From: Alistipes sp.
GTDB taxonomy: Bacteria > Bacteroidota > Bacteroidia > Bacteroidales > Rikenellaceae
Reading direction: 5' to 3'
Assembly (NCBI GenBank): GCA_017465605.1
Contig: JAFTVW010000051.1
Span: forward strand, 1-50,371
DNA length: 50,371 bases
A program made the position numbers and the translations under genes. Each line of letters starts with the position of its first letter. The stretch's first letter is position 1. This document shows positions 132-10,339 of this stretch, in pieces. The notes below the pieces were generated by a model. The model worked only from the letters and a program-made list of their open reading frames with translations. It did not search any database and had not been told where the DNA came from.

Positions 132-180
132 CGTAACTTCTTATAACAAATATACGAAAAATAATTAAATAAAAAATAAA

Positions 181-204
181 GCCCAACAGATTTTTCTGCT
201 GGGC
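181..204 (-). terminator. Rho-independent terminator (probably bidirectional)
   Basis: GCCCAACAGA and TCTGCTGGGC form a 10-bp stem with a 4-base loop and one mismatch that becomes a G-U pair on the minus-strand RNA. On the minus strand it is followed by TTTATTTTTTATTT, placing it just after the TAA (223-225) of the helix-turn-helix gene. That supports this gene being a real transcription unit with TAA as its true stop. Confidence 0.7.
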
Positions 205-222
205 TTTTGCTTTTATATGATA

Positions 223-1188
223 TTACATTGCGTATGCTTTTTGAAGCTTCGGACGATTCTGTTTCTCTCGTAAGTATTGGTCGTAGAGAGTTTGCAGTTT
301 CAGGGGTTTGAGAAAATACTCGATAGAAACCTCTGGTGGTAGTTGCTGAGGACAGCGCTGCTCAAGATTGTGGCGCAGGTCGATATACTCATTCTCTCGA
401 TAATCAGCTAAAGGTCGATACCTCGCTCCTATAAGTTCTAATGCTACTCTGCTTTGACTTTTGTAATCTCGAAGTCGAGAGCCGTATTCCTCGCAGAAAA
501 TCCGTAATGTGTCGAATATCTCTCTATCCATACTTCGCAACATATCGTTTATAAAGTAATCGCCAGTAATCTGATAACCTCATTCGTTTTGGGTTACAAA
601 GCCGTGCCGTAGGCATTCTTCCAATAAAGCAGAAACCGTATTACGAGCCATACCTATGCCATCGGCTATCTCGCGTTTATTTCAACCTATGGTATTCGTA
701 CCGTTAATACAGACACACTTCAGCAACAGCAGAAACCCTGCTATCTTCGGAGTGTATCCTTGTTTAAAGAACTCCCTGTCGAGCATAAAGAAGTTTCGCA
801 TCCTAAAATCAGTATAGTAAGTATTATGGCGAGTTGTCTCGTCACTAAAATGGGTTGTGATTTTAAGTAACTCCGACTCCTCCAAACGGCGAATACTTCT
901 GCGGATGGTTCGCTCTTTTATGTTGGTCAACTTTACCAACTTCTCTATTGTTACGTGGCTCTCGCCATCTCTATAATTCGAACAACTGCGAATCACTGCT
1001 CATACATACGCATCAAGAGGTTTGCTGTTACTCTTTATCTGTATGAGACTTTTGGGTAGTGTAATGTAACTCATCGTTTGCAATGTGTTTAGTGGTGAAT
1101 ATAATCTCTCTATTGTGGAGCATATGTCTGAAACGTGATACTCCGTAATGTTGTTTGGCCTGCTTGCGTGTAGAGAAGCGAAGCCCAT
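223..1188 (-). CDS. Two-HTH replication-initiator-like protein with three in-frame UGA codons
   Basis: From ATG 1188 to TAA 223 the minus strand is open in one frame for 321 codons, except for TGA at codons 63 (1000-1002), 169 (682-684) and 203 (580-582). There is no TGG anywhere in the frame. The contexts (AYV-x-AVIRSC, TIG-x-NKREIA, QNE-x-GYQIT) would all suit tryptophan. Codons about 78-108 and 170-198 look like winged-helix/HTH segments (NIKERTIRRSIRRLEES; NKREIADGIGMARNTVSALL). Two HTH units followed by a basic C-terminus resemble initiator or regulator proteins of mobile elements, but no family can be named. A TAGTTTTG -7-like box lies at 1212-1219 and a terminator follows the TAA. Under the standard code it would be three fragments, i.e. 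a pseudogene. Neighbouring genes use TGG normally and the integrase ends in TGA. Either recoding or decay is possible. Confidence 0.6.
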
Positions 1189-1211
1189 CAGACGGGTTGT
1201 AGTACATCGTA

Positions 1212-1260: not shown

Positions 1261-1308
1261 GGACAGTTTTGAGCATAATCCAATATCCTCTACGGACACT
1301 TTTGAGCA
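1261..1308. repeat. Direct repeat pair, GGACA[G/C]TTTTGAGCA
   Basis: Fifteen-base copies at 1261-1275 and 1294-1308 differ at one base and are 33 bases apart. Short direct repeats like these occur near the ends of some insertion sequences (for example IS21-type) and in iteron-like sites. No transposase is present, so the assignment stays open. Confidence 0.4.
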
Positions 1309-2093: not shown

Positions 2094-2624
2094 ATGAATG
2101 TTAAGAAATTAAATGAAGCTACCGTAGCTAGTGGTAGTGTATCTAAGAATGCAAAATCTAATCGTATTTCACCGTTCAACCGTGTGATTACAAGTTCTAG
2201 AAAGTTGTATGCTCGCCAACTTGACCAAAATGCGAGCGTGAAGAATCGCTGTATGGAGCGTAATGTAACTAAGTACTATAACGAACCCGAAAAGTTTTGG
2301 GCAGAGTTCGAGAGCCGCAAGGAGGACATCCTTGACCGAGGCACATTCAAGTCTCGATGTGATAAGGAGGGTTTGAACCCCAAAAATGTAGCAGAGCACC
2401 TGCTATTTGAAGGTAGTGGTATTGTGAAGAAGACCTTGGAAACAGGCTTCGCTCACCTTAAGGGTAGGCATATGACCTATACTGAGCCTATCACCACCCG
2501 CACATATAGGGTAGTTAGAGCAGAGACTAAAAAAGAGTCAGCAATAAATCGCGGTTTACGACTGCCAGCGCATTCAGAGAGTATGGCAAACCCTCTAAAT
2601 GTTTTGGTTGAAAAAACTGCTTAA
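2094..2624 (+). CDS. Hypothetical protein of the integrated element
   Basis: A 176-residue basic, hydrophilic protein with no signal peptide, membrane segment or motif I recognise. The N-terminal 50 residues are rich in Ser, Asn, Lys and Arg and look disordered. The middle (about 55-125) has helical charged segments containing its only Trp (KFWAEFES), encoded by TGG. The ATG at 2094 follows an A/T-rich leader typical of Bacteroidetes starts, the stop is TAA, and a strong terminator follows 30 bases later, which supports a real gene. It lies between the HTH gene and the integrase, convergent with the latter, so it is probably cargo or an accessory function of the element. No function can be assigned. 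Confidence 0.65.
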   Translation: MNVKKLNEATVASGSVSKNAKSNRISPFNRVITSSRKLYARQLDQNASVKNRCMERNVTKYYNEPEKFWAEFESRKEDILDRGTFKSRCDKEGLNPKNVAEHLLFEGSGIVKKTLETGFAHLKGRHMTYTEPITTRTYRVVRAETKKESAINRGLRLPAHSESMANPLNVLVEKTA

Positions 2625-2703: not shown

Positions 2704-3936
2704 TCACAACAAATTCTTCATCGCCTCGTCTATCTGCGAGTTCTCGAAGGAATCCAAATAGATTTGAGTTATCTTTTCGGAGCTATGGCCGAGAGACTCG
2801 CTGATGATGGAGGTGGATACTCCCGACCTTTTGAGAACGGTTGCGTAGGAGTGTCGGGCTACATAGGTAGTTAAGGGAATAGGCAGGTTTAGATGCTCCC
2901 CAATAACTTTGAGATAGCGATTGATTAGTCGTGTTACTCGCTTGACTCTACCGTATTGCTGTGAGGCAGTAATATGGACTTTGCGTTTCAAAACGGGAAA
3001 GATGTAATCATCTGGAACGTGCTCCTTCTGATAATACTTGCGTAAAATTTCCAGAGCAAATGGTTGCAGATGAAATGAAATCAATTTGCCTGTTTTTTGA
3101 CGGTGATAGGTTACGCGTCCATCGAAAATATCTCGATAGCGCAGATGTAGCATATCCGTAAGATTTATTCCACACCCAAGATAACTAAACAGAAACAAGT
3201 CTTTACTCAACTGCATAAATGGCTTTGGGTACTTCGACAATGCCCTTACATCCAATTCCATAATTTGCCGTATCTGTTCCTTTGTTAAGGCTCGCTTGGC
3301 TGTTGATTCCTTAAACTGACTAACCTTAAATGCGTCGAATGGATAGTTTGTGCGCTTGGCAATACCATCCTCTATTGCTTGATTATAGAGTGCTCGCAGA
3401 GAACGAAATCGTATGCCCATTGAATTTTCTGATAGATGAGCCGTTGTACGAAACCAATTCTCTAACTCTTTAAGCCAAGCAGTATCAATACTTCCAAAAT
3501 AAAAATCAAGTGAGCCGAAGCATTTTTCAAGTGCGGTACGCAGATGAATAAATGTATCAGCATTCCCAATTCTATTAGCAGAGCGAAGTTTTGAAATGTA
3601 TGCGGTTAGATACTCACCGACTGTTATCCTACAGTTTTGCTTTGAAGTTTTGTCTATCAGCGTATGGAGAGTATACTCTTTATCTGATGTTTTGAACTCC
3701 ATCACTTGGCTCTGCAGTTCCTCAATCTTGGTACGGATTAGTTTTTCTATTTGCTCTCGGTTAGGGCAATTGCGTTTCGGTTTGCACTTTTCGAAATCCC
3801 AATGATCGGGAAAAATAGAGATGTGAAGACTGATGTACTTTAATTTGCGATTCTTTGTGAGACGAATCATTAGTGGGTGTTTGCCGTTGGATAGTTTTTT
3901 CGATGTGTAGAGAACGGCTGATACTGAGGTGTTCAT
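2704..3936 (-). CDS. Tyrosine recombinase (site-specific integrase)
   Basis: A 410-residue phage/transposon-type integrase of the Bacteroidetes kind: N-terminal arm-binding region, SAM-like core-binding domain (about 110-210), C-terminal catalytic domain. R361 and H362 (ARHSYAT), the GH of LGHSSEKI and the nucleophile candidate Y393 (ITQIYLDSF) are present. The position of the first catalytic Arg appears to be Cys255 (LGCGINLTDML), as in a subset of Bacteroidetes relatives. The frame is open back to 4023, but those codons lie in the tRNA terminator; ATG 3936 begins the typical MNTSVSAVLYTSK N-terminus and was chosen. It ends in TGA and uses TGG for Trp. Its place next to tRNA-Arg suggests that the element extending leftwards integrated at or near that tRNA. 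Confidence 0.88.
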   Translation of the reverse strand: MNTSVSAVLYTSKKLSNGKHPLMIRLTKNRKLKYISLHISIFPDHWDFEKCKPKRNCPNREQIEKLIRTKIEELQSQVMEFKTSDKEYTLHTLIDKTSKQNCRITVGEYLTAYISKLRSANRIGNADTFIHLRTALEKCFGSLDFYFGSIDTAWLKELENWFRTTAHLSENSMGIRFRSLRALYNQAIEDGIAKRTNYPFDAFKVSQFKESTAKRALTKEQIRQIMELDVRALSKYPKPFMQLSKDLFLFSYLGCGINLTDMLHLRYRDIFDGRVTYHRQKTGKLISFHLQPFALEILRKYYQKEHVPDDYIFPVLKRKVHITASQQYGRVKRVTRLINRYLKVIGEHLNLPIPLTTYVARHSYATVLKRSGVSTSIISESLGHSSEKITQIYLDSFENSQIDEAMKNLL

Positions 3937-3947
3937 AACCAATTCTG

Positions 3948-3971
3948 GTTTAAACATTGGTTTAAACAAAT
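3948..3971. repeat. Tandem GTTTAAACCA repeats ahead of the integrase
   Basis: On the minus strand GTTTAAACCA occurs twice, 14 bases apart, ending about 12 bases before the integrase ATG. They could be integrase/excisionase arm sites or an operator; nothing in the sequence decides. Confidence 0.35.
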
Positions 3972-4006
3972 GCCGAAAAACCACCCCTAAACGGCCAAAA
4001 TACAAC

Positions 4007-4040
4007 ACAAAAAAAGCGGTCACCTTTTGGGTAACCGCCT
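4007..4040 (-). terminator. Terminator of tRNA-Arg
   Basis: On the minus strand GCGGTTACC-CAAAA-GGTGACCGC forms a stem with one G-U pair, followed by TTTTTTT. It lies 10 bases after the tRNA and just before the integrase. Confidence 0.8.
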
Positions 4041-4049
4041 AGTTTTCAG

Positions 4050-4123
4050 TGACTCCGACAGGATTCAAACCTGTAACCGCTTGATCCGTAGTCAAGTACT
4101 CTATTCAGTTGAGCTACGGAGCC
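4050..4123 (-). tRNA. tRNA-Arg (anticodon ACG)
   Basis: Full cloverleaf on the minus strand: acceptor GGCTCCG/CGGAGTC, anticodon stem CTTGA/TCAAG with loop CTACGGA giving ACG, and T-arm with GGTTTGAATCC. The discriminator is A and CCA is not encoded. The adjacent integrase suggests it is or was an attachment site, but no duplicated tRNA 3' end is visible further left in the window. Confidence 0.95.
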
Positions 4124-5505: not shown

Positions 5506-7872
5506 TTACATCTTGAAATTCACTCCGAGGAAATATGTGCGTGGCATCATCGGGCCATACACATAAACCGAGTCGCGGAACGGACCGCAGTCGATATCAT
5601 CTTGGAACGAATCAAAGATATTCTTAATGCCACCGAACACCTCCAAATTAATAGCTCCTGTCAACTGAATATTATATGCCAAACGCAAACCCATATCCCA
5701 GAAATGAGGAGTCAGCTCGTTGCAATCGGCCTCGATATAACCAGCACTATGAGGTACAAGCATACGGCCTGTGTAGTTTCCAAATAGCGAAGCCTTAAAA
5801 TTGTGAGTAATGTCGGCCGTAGCAGTAAAGTAGGCGTAGTGGTCGGGGGTACGGAACATTCTTCGCTGAGGCTCTACGCTCTCTGACCACTCCTCGGGCT
5901 CGTCGTATCGGCTACGTTGGAAGGTATAGCCCATCTGCAAGTCAAAGACGTGAGGAATTCCCAATTTAAGCTCCCCCGTAAGACCCTTAACCTTTGCTCC
6001 TGCGGCGTTGTAGCGGGTTTGAATAATATAGCCAGCCTCGTTCTCTCCCGTTTTTGCCAATGCGAAAACATCGTCGAGAATTGTATAAAATCCCTCTACG
6101 AGCAAGTTAGCTTGTAAACGTCCGAAGTTGTGATATAGGTCGGCCGAAGCACTGAACGAGTGAGAATACTCTGGTTTCAGATTAGGGTCAAGCTCGATGA
6201 TAGATGATTGGTTGTTTACCGCGTCAATATGCAAATCCTCATCGAATGCCTGCGGAGCGCGATAACCACTCGAATAGCTTACTCTCAAACCAATATCCTC
6301 GATTGGACTGTAACGCAGGTTGGCACGAGGCGAGAAGATGATGTTGTCCATCATACTATGCTTGTCGAAGCGGCCACCGATAACAAAATTGACCTTATCG
6401 CTTTGCCACTCATTCTGAATAAACATACCAGCCGTACGGACTGTTTGCAGAATCGAGCGGTCGAAACCAATCGAGTGGTCATCGAGGTCGTTGTATGAGT
6501 ACTCGGCTCCGAGCGTGAATTGCGCAGGCATAAATAGGCACTTGTGCATCATATAGCTATACTGCGCACCTGCAACCCACGTTAGGTCTTGTGTGCGACC
6601 GTATGCATTGGGGTCTTTGCCAGTGCCGTAGTAGCTGTTACGCGAAATGGTTTGAGCCGAAGTGTAAACGTCGAATGTGTGGCGAGTGTCGGGCGAGAAA
6701 TAGCTAAAACGCAGACTACCGCCATCAATCTTATGTTTGACGTCCTCGGCAATCTCGGCCATATGGGGGGGCATCTCGATATTATCACCTCCACGACGAT
6801 ACTCGCTGATGTGGTGATACTCGGCCGTCAGCTTTGAGTATGCAGAGGTCTTGTAGTAGCCACGAAAACCAACAGTCTCCGACTCCATCTTCAACACGTC
6901 GGTAAAACCGTCTTCATTGTAATCAAACGGATCGCGATCCTTAACCATACCAAACACATATACTCCTGCGCGGTGGTCGTCCGAGACAAAGGAACCGTTA
7001 ATCGAAGTATTGAACTCGGCTGTATTCCCGTGCATAAGATTTGTGGTGTGCGAGAGTGAGAGCGAGTTGCGCAATGGCTCTTTGGTGATGATGTTTACCA
7101 CACCACCTATGGCATTTGAGCCAAAGAGTGCCGAGCCACCTCCTCGAATAACCTCTACACGCTCAATCATCGCAACAGGCAACTGCTCTAATCCATAGAC
7201 ACCCGCAAGCGAACTGAATATAGGACTTGAATCGAGCAAAATCTGCGAATACTGACCCTCCAAACCGTTGATACGAAGTTGCACAGCACCGCAGTTTCCA
7301 CAAGTATTCTCCACTCGTAAACCCGGCTGGAATTTAATGGACTCGGCAAGATTGGTCGAGGCTGTATTCTCGAATATCTTGCTCGATGTTACATTTACGA
7401 CAGTGGCCGTATTCTTTTTGTTTGTCTCGTTTCGGGTTGCAGAGACCACCACATCGTCCATCGCCATAGGCTGCTCTTCGAGGGTGATACTCACGTCGAG
7501 ATTCTTCTCGTGACCAGCTGCGATGGTATGCTCCACACTTTTATAACCCAAGTACTCTGCGACGATTGTGAACTCGCCATCGGGCAAATTGCGCATTGTG
7601 AAGTGACCCGTTGCATCGGCAACTGTACCGATTGTTGTACCCTTAATGGTAACAGTAACGTATGGGATATGCTCGCCGCTGGTGGCATCGAGTATGTGAC
7701 CCTTTAATGAAGTGCTGCCCATTCGCAGACGTTGGGGATTATCGTTTGCCGAGTCGTTTGTATTTTCGGTTGTATTGTCTGTGTTTGGAGTGGTGGTCGC
7801 AGCGATGGCTGTTGTGCCCATAGCGCACAACATAACCATCATAACCACCATTGTTAACTTCATAGCTTTCAT
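5506..7872 (-). CDS. TonB-dependent outer-membrane receptor (probable metal or metal-chelate uptake)
   Basis: 788 residues: signal peptide (about 1-25), carboxypeptidase-D-regulatory-like domain (about 54-135), plug (about 145-265, with ILLDSSPIF and ...RVEVIRGGGSALFGSNAIGG type motifs), then a 22-strand-type beta-barrel ending in the aromatic residues LGVNFKM. A CGNC pair (C191/C194) in the plug is typical of one group of Bacteroidetes receptors and could bind metal. The gene lies about 110 bases downstream of a His-rich small membrane protein on the same strand, a pairing that suggests import of a transition metal or its chelate; this is inferred from context. Several N-terminal Met codons (M1, M4) make the exact start uncertain by a few residues. 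Confidence 0.9.
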   Translation of the reverse strand: MKAMKLTMVVMMVMLCAMGTTAIAATTTPNTDNTTENTNDSANDNPQRLRMGSTSLKGHILDATSGEHIPYVTVTIKGTTIGTVADATGHFTMRNLPDGEFTIVAEYLGYKSVEHTIAAGHEKNLDVSITLEEQPMAMDDVVVSATRNETNKKNTATVVNVTSSKIFENTASTNLAESIKFQPGLRVENTCGNCGAVQLRINGLEGQYSQILLDSSPIFSSLAGVYGLEQLPVAMIERVEVIRGGGSALFGSNAIGGVVNIITKEPLRNSLSLSHTTNLMHGNTAEFNTSINGSFVSDDHRAGVYVFGMVKDRDPFDYNEDGFTDVLKMESETVGFRGYYKTSAYSKLTAEYHHISEYRRGGDNIEMPPHMAEIAEDVKHKIDGGSLRFSYFSPDTRHTFDVYTSAQTISRNSYYGTGKDPNAYGRTQDLTWVAGAQYSYMMHKCLFMPAQFTLGAEYSYNDLDDHSIGFDRSILQTVRTAGMFIQNEWQSDKVNFVIGGRFDKHSMMDNIIFSPRANLRYSPIEDIGLRVSYSSGYRAPQAFDEDLHIDAVNNQSSIIELDPNLKPEYSHSFSASADLYHNFGRLQANLLVEGFYTILDDVFALAKTGENEAGYIIQTRYNAAGAKVKGLTGELKLGIPHVFDLQMGYTFQRSRYDEPEEWSESVEPQRRMFRTPDHYAYFTATADITHNFKASLFGNYTGRMLVPHSAGYIEADCNELTPHFWDMGLRLAYNIQLTGAINLEVFGGIKNIFDSFQDDIDCGPFRDSVYVYGPMMPRTYFLGVNFKM

Positions 7873-8922: not shown

Positions 8923-9831
8923 TCAATGTGCAAACCTTTGATTTAGATATTCTAAAATCTTTTCTCTCTCCGAAGGGTTAAACCACTCAATTTCGGGGTC
9001 TCGGCGGAACCAAGTGAGTTGTCGTTTGGCGTATCGTCGAGAGTTGCGTTTAATAAGTTCGATGGCCTCCTCGCGTGTGATTTTCCCATCAAAGTAGTCG
9101 AACATTTCGCGATAACCAACCGTTTGTAGCGAGTTCAGATGTCTCAGATGGTTAACCGAGCGAGCCTCTTGCTCCAAGCCTTGTTCAATCATTATATTGA
9201 CACGTCTATCAATGCGCTCATACAACACATCTCGCGACATATCAACGCCAATCTTTATTATCTCAAAATCGCGGCTACGTTTTTCTCCTGTACGAAGCTC
9301 TGAATATGGTCTGCCTGTTGATAAGCACACCTCCAAAGCCCTTAACACCCTTGCTGGATTTTTTCTGTCAACCTTCTGGTAAAAATCGGGGTCGAGTTGT
9401 TTTAGTTGTTCACACAATGACTCCAATCCTTCGTCGCGTAGTCTTGTGGCAAGCTCTTCGCGCAGTGAGGCGTCGGCCTCGGGCATATCGTCCATTCCTT
9501 CGCATAAAGCCTTGACGTATAGGCCCGAACCACCGACCGCAACAACCGTATCGTAGGTTTGGAATAGCTGCTCTAAACATTGCAGGGCTGCCACCTCGTA
9601 TGCTCCGCAGTTAAAGTCTTGGTTGAGGTCGTGTGATGCAATGAAATGGTGCTCAACGCGATTTAATTGGTCTATGTCGGGTTGAGCCGTACCGATTGGT
9701 ATGCCACGATAGAATTGACGCGAGTCGGTAGAGATTATAGGCGTAGCAAAATGCTCGGCCACAGCTATGCTGAGGTCGGTTTTGCCAGAGCCTGTCGGGC
9801 CTACGATTACTATGAGCCGTTTAGTACTCAT
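8923..9831 (-). CDS. miaA: tRNA dimethylallyltransferase
   Basis: 302 residues. It transfers a dimethylallyl group to N6 of A37 in tRNAs reading UNN codons. The N-terminus has the P-loop GPTGSGKT (about 9-16) and the DSRQFYRG segment; the GGSGLYVKAL motif and the C-terminal RYAKRQLTWFRRD signature are present. The frame is open to 9870, but ATG 9831 (MSTKRLIVI) fits the family and overlaps the last 11 bases of the upstream gene, pointing to translational coupling with it. Ends in TGA, one of the proofs that the host uses UGA as stop. Two tRNA genes follow downstream. Confidence 0.95.
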   Translation of the reverse strand: MSTKRLIVIVGPTGSGKTDLSIAVAEHFATPIISTDSRQFYRGIPIGTAQPDIDQLNRVEHHFIASHDLNQDFNCGAYEVAALQCLEQLFQTYDTVVAVGGSGLYVKALCEGMDDMPEADASLREELATRLRDEGLESLCEQLKQLDPDFYQKVDRKNPARVLRALEVCLSTGRPYSELRTGEKRSRDFEIIKIGVDMSRDVLYERIDRRVNIMIEQGLEQEARSVNHLRHLNSLQTVGYREMFDYFDGKITREEAIELIKRNSRRYAKRQLTWFRRDPEIEWFNPSEREKILEYLNQRFAH

Positions 9832-10339
9832 CGTCGTAGCCGTCATCACCTTCAAAATCGCTATACTCACCCATCATCTCCTCGAATATCGAGCCACTCT
9901 CTTCGTTGGCTTCGGGGTCGTACTGGTCGGGAGCAGGGGAGTGTTCAAATTGCAGACGAGGATATTTCATTCCATCTTGTGGCTCTTTGGCCTCAATTAG
10001 CTCCATATAGTATGCTCTCTCGTTGAAGGGGTCGAAAAGATATATAAGCCTATCGTGCAGATGTGTAAGAACGTTCTCCAAACGAGCTGATACCATTGGC
10101 TCGGGCGTGCCAAAACCTCCATCGCCAACGCCCATACCCATATCCATAAAAGTAAACTCCTTGGTGCGTTCCCACCTATCATCGGCCGTAAAGAATGAGG
10201 CCATACAAGGGTCGTAGCCAAGCATTGCAATAATAAATTCGTGCAACTCCAATAGTGTAGAGCTGGCCATTATCTCGAAATCGCGGACAAAATTGTCGTT
10301 CTCATCGCTGAGCATTCTGAATCTGAAAACCATTGACAT
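9821..10339 (-). CDS. Plasmid pRiA4b ORF-3-like protein
   Basis: 172 residues resembling the pRiA4b ORF-3 / IS1096 TnpR-like family, a common Bacteroidetes housekeeping neighbour of miaA despite its name. An N-terminal ubiquitin-like beta/alpha segment (FRFRMLSDENDNFVRDFEI, LHEFI) is followed by the typical SFF...W..., LIYLFDPFNERAYYMELIE core and an acidic tail (EGDDGYDDEY). The exact role is unknown. Its stop overlaps the miaA start, so the two are co-translated. M3 (10333) is an alternative start. Confidence 0.75.
   Translation of the reverse strand: MSMVFRFRMLSDENDNFVRDFEIMASSTLLELHEFIIAMLGYDPCMASFFTADDRWERTKEFTFMDMGMGVGDGGFGTPEPMVSARLENVLTHLHDRLIYLFDPFNERAYYMELIEAKEPQDGMKYPRLQFEHSPAPDQYDPEANEESGSIFEEMMGEYSDFEGDDGYDDEY

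Follow-up and report, generated by a model that had tools for sequence, protein, structure and literature searches.

In-frame UGA codons of an initiator-like gene in Alistipes islands: a probable readthrough latch

Programmed readthrough of UGA by near-cognate tRNA-Trp is known from the coat protein extension of phage Q-beta, and in the bldA/TTA system of Streptomyces a rare decoding event gates selected regulator genes. Here we describe a gene interrupted by in-frame UGA codons (below, the UGA gene) at the edge of a 50,371-nucleotide contig of Alistipes sp. (JAFTVW010000051.1, assembly GCA_017465605.1); the window analyzed is the whole contig. The gene is carried by tRNA-integrated islands that form a family in Alistipes. 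Judged from its sequence, it is a working gene and not a pseudogene, and the UGAs probably serve as a programmed-readthrough latch on the synthesis of a tandem winged-helix, initiator-like island protein.

Several further systems are relevant. Passages on the release-factor gene of Mimivirus describe UGA readthrough and invoke a tRNA-Trp with a Hirsh-type A in the D-arm (PMC3521657). Stop-recoded gut phages, which use genetic codes 4 and 15, may time their late genes by recoding, according to summary statements (Borges 2022 as cited in PMC10607447; PMC10879173). In a synthetic E. coli circuit outlined in PMC7969014, the leak dampener, nonsense codons (TGA in one version) are read only when a suppressor tRNA is supplied. 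For in-frame stops of bacteria at large, passages in PMC7918605 give ratios of nonsynonymous to synonymous substitution rates (dN/dS) below 1 around the stops, report enrichment in the mobilome, and propose a role in expression control. None of the titles returned by our literature search reports the Alistipes UGA gene family.

Conservation of the UGA sites and selection through them

In the window, the minus-strand frame running from 1206 to 223 has three TGA codons as its sole interruptions and ends in TAA, with no TAG, no TGG, and no frameshift. A preliminary description of the window had given this frame correctly, naming no strand, together with a terminator behind the gene, where a terminator-like hairpin lies (Table 1); its start at 1188, with the UGAs at codons 63, 169, and 203, has to be revised. 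Because all 12 full-length copies that we collected align from the ATG at 1074, and because the stretch above that ATG is coding in another frame, the start is likely at 1074, and the UGAs are therefore codons 25, 131, and 165 of 283. The genome of the window has a single copy of the gene, and only 222 bases of the contig are visible past its end.

Searches for relatives gave matches in 7 of 150 related genomes, 16 of 399 relatives, 17 of 180 genomes from the genus, and 3 of 393 from the order, the window's own genome being included in these counts. They yielded 12 full-length copies from 10 genomes, one of which has three, and a copy cut by a contig end (G183) that has one TGA. Homologues of about 40% identity with in-frame TGA were already present in the 150-genome search, and all 10 genomes with full-length copies belong to Alistipes. 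Codons 25 and 131 (sites 1 and 2) are TGA in every full-length copy, down to 37% identity; some copies have three or four UGAs in all. When UGA is read as Trp, the Trp codons of the 12 copies comprise 32 TGA and 3 TGG, and the copies have no TAA, no TAG, and no frameshift. The preliminary description had proposed a look for relatives with TGA at the same positions, and these two sites provide them. One copy, with two TGA codons, sits on NZ_LT985748.1 (Alistipes sp. Marseille-P5061; G062), whose title, unlike those of the other Alistipes records matched, has no label as a metagenome-assembled genome; an assembly artefact is therefore unlikely. Among the 10 matching records, eight are titled Alistipes, one "Bacteroidales bacterium," and one Gallicola, the last being a distant stop-free homologue.

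As for the other matches in the genus, G041 has the gene in two pieces, G056 and G221 have distant homologues that are free of stops, and G019, G032, and G190 match weakly, two of these three having stops within the stretch that matched. Outside the genus, one match is decayed (G295) and one is a short C-terminal stretch with one TGA (G258). The G041 copy is broken and rearranged: the 3' part of the gene occurs twice (about 6772-7016 and 9827-10084 of locus L017) with about 2.8 kb of other genes between, and the N-terminal part was not found. The relative in G295, from another genus of the family, consists of C-terminal pieces in two frames, one of them with a TGA (L082/L087). Phage, plasmid, and IMG/VR collections yielded no relatives of the gene in a search of limited sensitivity, some scans of which used patterns with W, presumably back-translated as TGG and thus weak for a UGA gene.

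The UGA codons of the gene most likely stand for Trp, because codon 209 is TGA in one copy and TGG in two copies of 89% and 84% identity, and because stop-free distant homologues mostly have aromatic residues at the fixed sites. The five such homologues have Tyr, Phe, Tyr, Phe, and Phe at site 1 and Phe, Tyr, Tyr, Phe, and Leu at site 2. The swap between close copies bears out the Trp assignment made in the preliminary description. The accompanying expectation, that intact relatives would have Trp at these positions, held for the aromatic character of the sites (5/5 and 4/5) and not for Trp itself. Selenocysteine insertion is not supported: none of the 10 host genomes has a tRNA-Sec (RF01852) above the cut-off, sub-threshold matches occur in all 10, and those in the window's own genome are ordinary tRNAs by position.

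Purifying selection runs through the stops. In pairwise comparisons, dN/dS is 0-0.22 before the first UGA (8 of 9 pairs), 0.07-0.43 between the two fixed UGAs (computable in 8 of 9), and 0.08-0.26 past the second (9 of 9). An in-frame stop conserved at fixed sites, with coding selection downstream of it, is the pattern by which a readthrough gene is recognized. The preliminary description had already held that random decay would look otherwise, and both the codon counts and these ratios side with it.

There is also suggestive rather than overwhelming evidence that UGA itself, as opposed to UGG, is constrained at the fixed sites. As controls we took the 44 other columns in which the residue is invariant while its third base is degenerate (8 Lys/Glu/Gln, 20 two-fold pyrimidine, and 16 four-fold; Leu, Ile, Arg, and Ser excluded); a single one of them keeps one third base in all 12 copies. 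On a tree of the copies, parsimony gives the control columns a mean of 2.1-3.0 changes and the two UGA columns 0 and 0, and the Lys/Glu/Gln codons of the copies favor G over A (348 vs 294). The evidence goes no further than suggestive because just two columns were tested.

The UGA device is, on the genes compared, a property of one operon, formed by the UGA gene and a small gene upstream. The other island genes write Trp as UGG: the integrase has 31 TGG and 0 TGA over 12 elements, a Sak4-like ATPase 28 and 0 (present in 7 of 12), DUF3871 18 and 0 (7 of 12), and a fourth element gene 19 and 0 (4 of 12, one with an in-frame TAA or TAG), which sums to 96 TGG and 0 TGA. Element-wide use of code 4 was rejected for these genes on that count and on the lack of any UCA tRNA found. 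The preliminary description's idea that the gene came from a recoded replicon is not supported, given the same count and the fact that the UGAs are conserved, not lost. Its other suggestion, a safety latch on the initiator, would be in keeping with a pattern confined to particular genes.

The small upstream gene has 54-72 codons across the family and overlaps the start of the UGA gene in another frame. Its codon 10 is TGA in 8 of 13 copies; the remaining five are the window's clade and have Arg (four) or Cys (one). Substitutions summed over pairs fall mostly on third positions in six copies of one clade (48:23:173 by codon position); the sums for the five copies of the window's clade are 82:48:128. 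A recoding screen over the loci gave, among the matches listed, many frames with shared TGA, including that of the small gene; by inspection only, we took most of them for frames that run antisense to ordinary genes or overlap them.

Possible readers of UGA in Alistipes hosts

No tRNA that would read UGA as a cognate codon was found in the hosts. The anticodon UCA occurs in none of the 43 tRNAs that the Rfam model finds in the window's own genome, an incomplete assembly with no tRNA-Phe or tRNA-Ile among the 43, and in none of the 48 of G186, a one-contig genome that is not visibly incomplete. A UCA-tRNA pattern gave 56 matches in the 10 hosts, none of them a tRNA, and a strict version gave none in 180 genomes of the genus. 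ARAGORN found 162 tRNAs in 214 loci, island loci included, and none with a stop anticodon. All three methods would miss unusual tRNAs. When viral contigs were scanned with a slightly altered form of the strict pattern, 45 stretches came back, of which 13 hold a UCA tRNA and one more a CTA tRNA only; such tRNAs are thus detectable by pattern. The UCA-anticodon tRNA-Trp that the preliminary description had called for was not found by these searches in the window's own genome, in G186, or in the 10 hosts, and a helper phage could still supply one. In two viral stretches of 10.8 and 9.5 kb (L252 and L248), from IMG/VR contigs of 229 and 343 kb with tRNA(UCA), reading through TGA raises the open-frame coverage from 0.51 to 0.99 (L252) and from 0.63 to 0.93 (L248).

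The host tRNA-Trp(CCA) is the likeliest reader in uninfected cells. It has A24, paired with U11, in all eight hosts in which it could be read (two of the 10 pieces proved to be tRNA-Met), where E. coli tRNA-Trp has G24; G24A is the Hirsh UGA suppressor of E. coli according to a passage in PMC11805395. The first pair of its anticodon stem is G-U, and unpairing that end of the stem is described in part of PMC13092985 as another route to UGA reading, although G-U still counts as a pair. In the remaining families of the order, 25 of 27 tRNA-Trp have G24 and 2 have A24, a biased sample: 43 of 60 genomes matched the query (own included), 30 were examined, and 2 of the 29 others were without tRNA-Trp. 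The base after the UGA is G at site 1 and A at site 2 in all 12 copies, and U in the small gene. Passages in PMC5289835 name UGA-A as a context in which E. coli tRNA-Trp misreads the codon especially readily and UGA-U as one of low readthrough. The window's own genome has tRNA-Trp(CCA) twice; the two copies agree over 72 bases and lie near a contig start (G000:C45:273-344) and near a contig end (G000:C48:25173-25246). UGA avoidance by Alistipes, considered as a sign of leakage, was not found: 75 of 321 ORFs in Alistipes loci end in TGA vs 6 of 65 in other loci of the order, a comparison confounded by GC content.

In the reading that we favor, a standard-code host would read the UGAs of this gene as Trp by programmed readthrough, and full-length protein would probably arise in cells in no other way. 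Ribosomes would have to pass two to four UGAs, so the protein would be made only at a low level or under special conditions, and the UGAs would act as a latch on a protein whose presumed task is to set off the replication, excision, or expression of the island. Leakage through tRNA-Trp(CCA) with its Hirsh-type A24 would set a basal level, a drop in RF2 or an added tRNA(UCA) would raise it steeply, and the latch would open fully on arrival of a recoding phage's tRNA(UCA). Synthesis of the protein, its role as an initiator, and a regulatory function of the latch are inferences.

Several observations weigh against this reading. UGA is an ordinary stop in these genomes, as the preliminary description had noted of host genes: 4 of the 35 long open reading frames (ORFs) of the window, the integrase included, and 75 of 321 ORFs in Alistipes loci end in TGA. 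RF2 is present in all five genomes searched, and with it at work two or three UGAs in series should let very little protein through by leakage alone. A24 is not special to island hosts, given the 2 of 27 tRNAs elsewhere in the order, and passages of PMC13092985 count A9C and/or G24A in 2,414 of 3,438 bacterial tRNA-Trp with 4-bp anticodon stems. The fourth TGA of the G192 copy aligns with an Arg of the window's gene, so that not every UGA stands at an old Trp, and the UGA of the small gene aligns with Arg, Cys, or Ile and not with aromatics, besides its unfavorable U. Finally, the third-base argument has two columns, and the assignment as an initiator comes from weak profile hits.

The strongest rival, which we consider unlikely, is that the gene senses a helper phage: the UGAs would be read efficiently only when a code 4 phage brings tRNA(UCA), and infection would switch the initiator on. 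The lack of a host tRNA(UCA) in our searches, the existence of viral contigs that carry one and open up on TGA readthrough, the anti-phage-like genes of some islands (AbiL, AbiH, and DRT UG26), and the preference for UGA over UGG at the fixed sites all speak for it. Nothing in the data, however, links a recoding phage to Alistipes hosts; the island proteins scanned include no packaging or capsid gene beyond weak matches, and the phage, plasmid, and IMG/VR collections, within the sensitivity of the search, hold no family match. A broader version, a genetic-code lock, is doubtful as well: the initiator, and in most copies the coupled small gene, would be unreadable until the decoding environment changes, above all through the tRNA(UCA) of a UGA-recoding phage. 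If this were true, the island would sense the genetic code of its invader.

Readthrough also has to be weighed against intended termination, in which the fixed stop positions would delimit short products, with downstream pieces made by re-initiation as separate polypeptides. We consider this improbable, as the UGAs lie inside or just behind the winged-helix matches and not at clear boundaries, the swap at codon 209 and the aromatics of stop-free homologues indicate sites that are read as residues, and the third UGA site differs between clades. More improbable still is a dedicated reader, an unrecognized tRNA or recoding factor of the element that decodes UGA as Trp; an unusual tRNA could have escaped ARAGORN, the Rfam tRNA model, and our patterns, but a stop anticodon is absent from the 162 tRNAs that ARAGORN found. 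Ordinary decay or sequencing error is barely credible and was rejected, for the broken copies in G041 and G295 and the general enrichment of in-frame stops in mobile genes (passages in PMC7918605) are set against 12 copies with 32 TGA, no TAA, TAG, or frameshift, and dN/dS well below 1, and against the copy on a record not labeled as metagenome-assembled.

The encoded protein and the islands

Profile searches alone place two winged-helix domains in the protein, HTH_36 (65-114 of P0001) and HTH_Crp_2 (154-207), with two of the window's UGAs inside these matches and the third just behind them. HTH_36 was matched in 14, HTH_Crp_2 in 12, and RepL in 3 of 15 family members, and weak similarity extends to phage replication initiators (PHROG) and DnaD-like helicase loaders. 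A match to a terminase small subunit family is weak (E 0.012), and solved structures gave only weak winged-helix or chance matches. A pair of 14-bp iteron-like repeats lies upstream of the small gene in all 11 loci scanned (at most two mismatches per copy), with the copies 24 or 33 bp apart and one pair per locus; elsewhere in those loci there is no copy at zero or one mismatch, and nine single copies at two. The likeliest role of the protein is that of a replication initiator or of a master regulator, which would bind these paired repeats.

Table 1. Features of the UGA gene and its surroundings in the window
Feature	Position	Strand	Remarks
Intrinsic-terminator-like hairpin after the UGA gene	178..207	-	13 pairs
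UGA gene, tandem winged-helix initiator-like protein	223..1074	-	283 codons + TAA; UGA at codons 25, 131, 165; no UGG
UGA site 3, codon 165	580..582	-	TGA in the window's own clade (4/4 full-length copies); in other clades, other residues
UGA site 2, codon 131	682..684	-	TGA in 12/12 copies, next base A in 12/12; stop-free homologues aromatic 4/5, Leu 1/5
UGA site 1, codon 25	1000..1002	-	TGA in 12/12 full-length copies; aromatic in 5/5 aligned stop-free homologues
Small upstream gene	1028..1207	-	59 codons + TAA; 47-nt overlap with the UGA gene; no UGA in the window copy
Iteron-like direct repeat, copy nearer the genes	1261..1274	-	GCTCAAAACTGTCC
Iteron-like direct repeat, second copy	1294..1307	-	GCTCAAAAGTGTCC; spacing 33
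176-aa ORF without family match	2094..2624	+	between integrase and UGA gene; one UGG
Tyrosine integrase	2704..4023	-	3 UGG (Trp); TGA as stop codon
tRNA-Arg(ACG), likely integration site	4049..4123	-	judged by its position and by the tRNA repeats of related islands

In the window, the integrase adjoins the tRNA-Arg and the far end of the island lies beyond the contig. Measured from the junction of integrase and tRNA and from repeats of the tRNA end, the islands of G186 and G215 span about 19.6 and 13.7 kb, respectively. For one island of G085, a duplicated segment of the tRNA points to about 10 kb; the other islands have no tRNA-end repeat within the sequence examined. G085 (MSHJ01 records) has the UGA gene in three distinct islands, two of which are 89% alike in that gene. 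The 176-aa protein of the window has a relative in the G183 locus, 28% identical over about 115 residues.

The cargo varies from island to island and includes AbiL-like and RloB proteins, AbiH-like and DRT UG26-like proteins, and leucine-rich (BspA-type) proteins. The G186 island encodes a reverse transcriptase of the defense type DRT UG26 (L137:8556-9869), with an AbiH-like protein and transposases. The islands have an integrase and, in some cases, direct repeats of the tRNA. Among the island proteins scanned, a part of the island ORFs, no packaging, capsid, or relaxase gene was recognized beyond weak matches, a leucine-rich protein against tail families being one of them (E 0.00017), and therefore neither "phage satellite" (of the PICI kind) nor "mobilizable element" is established as a description of the islands.

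Comparison with known systems

If several conserved UGA codons are read as Trp in a single control operon, while the host employs UGA as a stop and no UCA tRNA was found in it, a mobile element would have a translational latch of natural origin. Such a latch makes two ideas testable, namely that bacteria with a Hirsh-type tRNA-Trp read UGA routinely and that mobile elements make use of phage recoding. It is also a warning, since genes of this kind are easily mistaken for pseudogenes.

As in Q-beta and Mimivirus, UGA would be read as Trp in a standard-code setting, but the Alistipes gene has two invariant UGAs, with three or four in some copies, plus, in most copies, a conserved UGA in the overlapping small gene. 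The bldA/TTA system, in turn, works with a sense codon and a dedicated tRNA, whereas the Alistipes gene uses a stop codon. The likeness to recoded gut phages lies in stops placed in chosen genes of a mobile element, in UGA as Trp as in code 4, and in a standard-code host. Unlike those phages, which recode late lysis or structural genes, the Alistipes islands are integrated, place the device in one operon with an initiator-like gene, and, like their hosts, have no tRNA(UCA) that we could find. The leak dampener resembles the proposed latch in that nonsense codons in a regulated gene hold back leakage until a suppressor is supplied, with the difference that the dampener is engineered and its suppressor is part of the circuit. 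Finally, where the passages of PMC7918605 give broad statistics over close genomes, the Alistipes islands offer one deep family with fixed UGA sites and a known residue equivalence.
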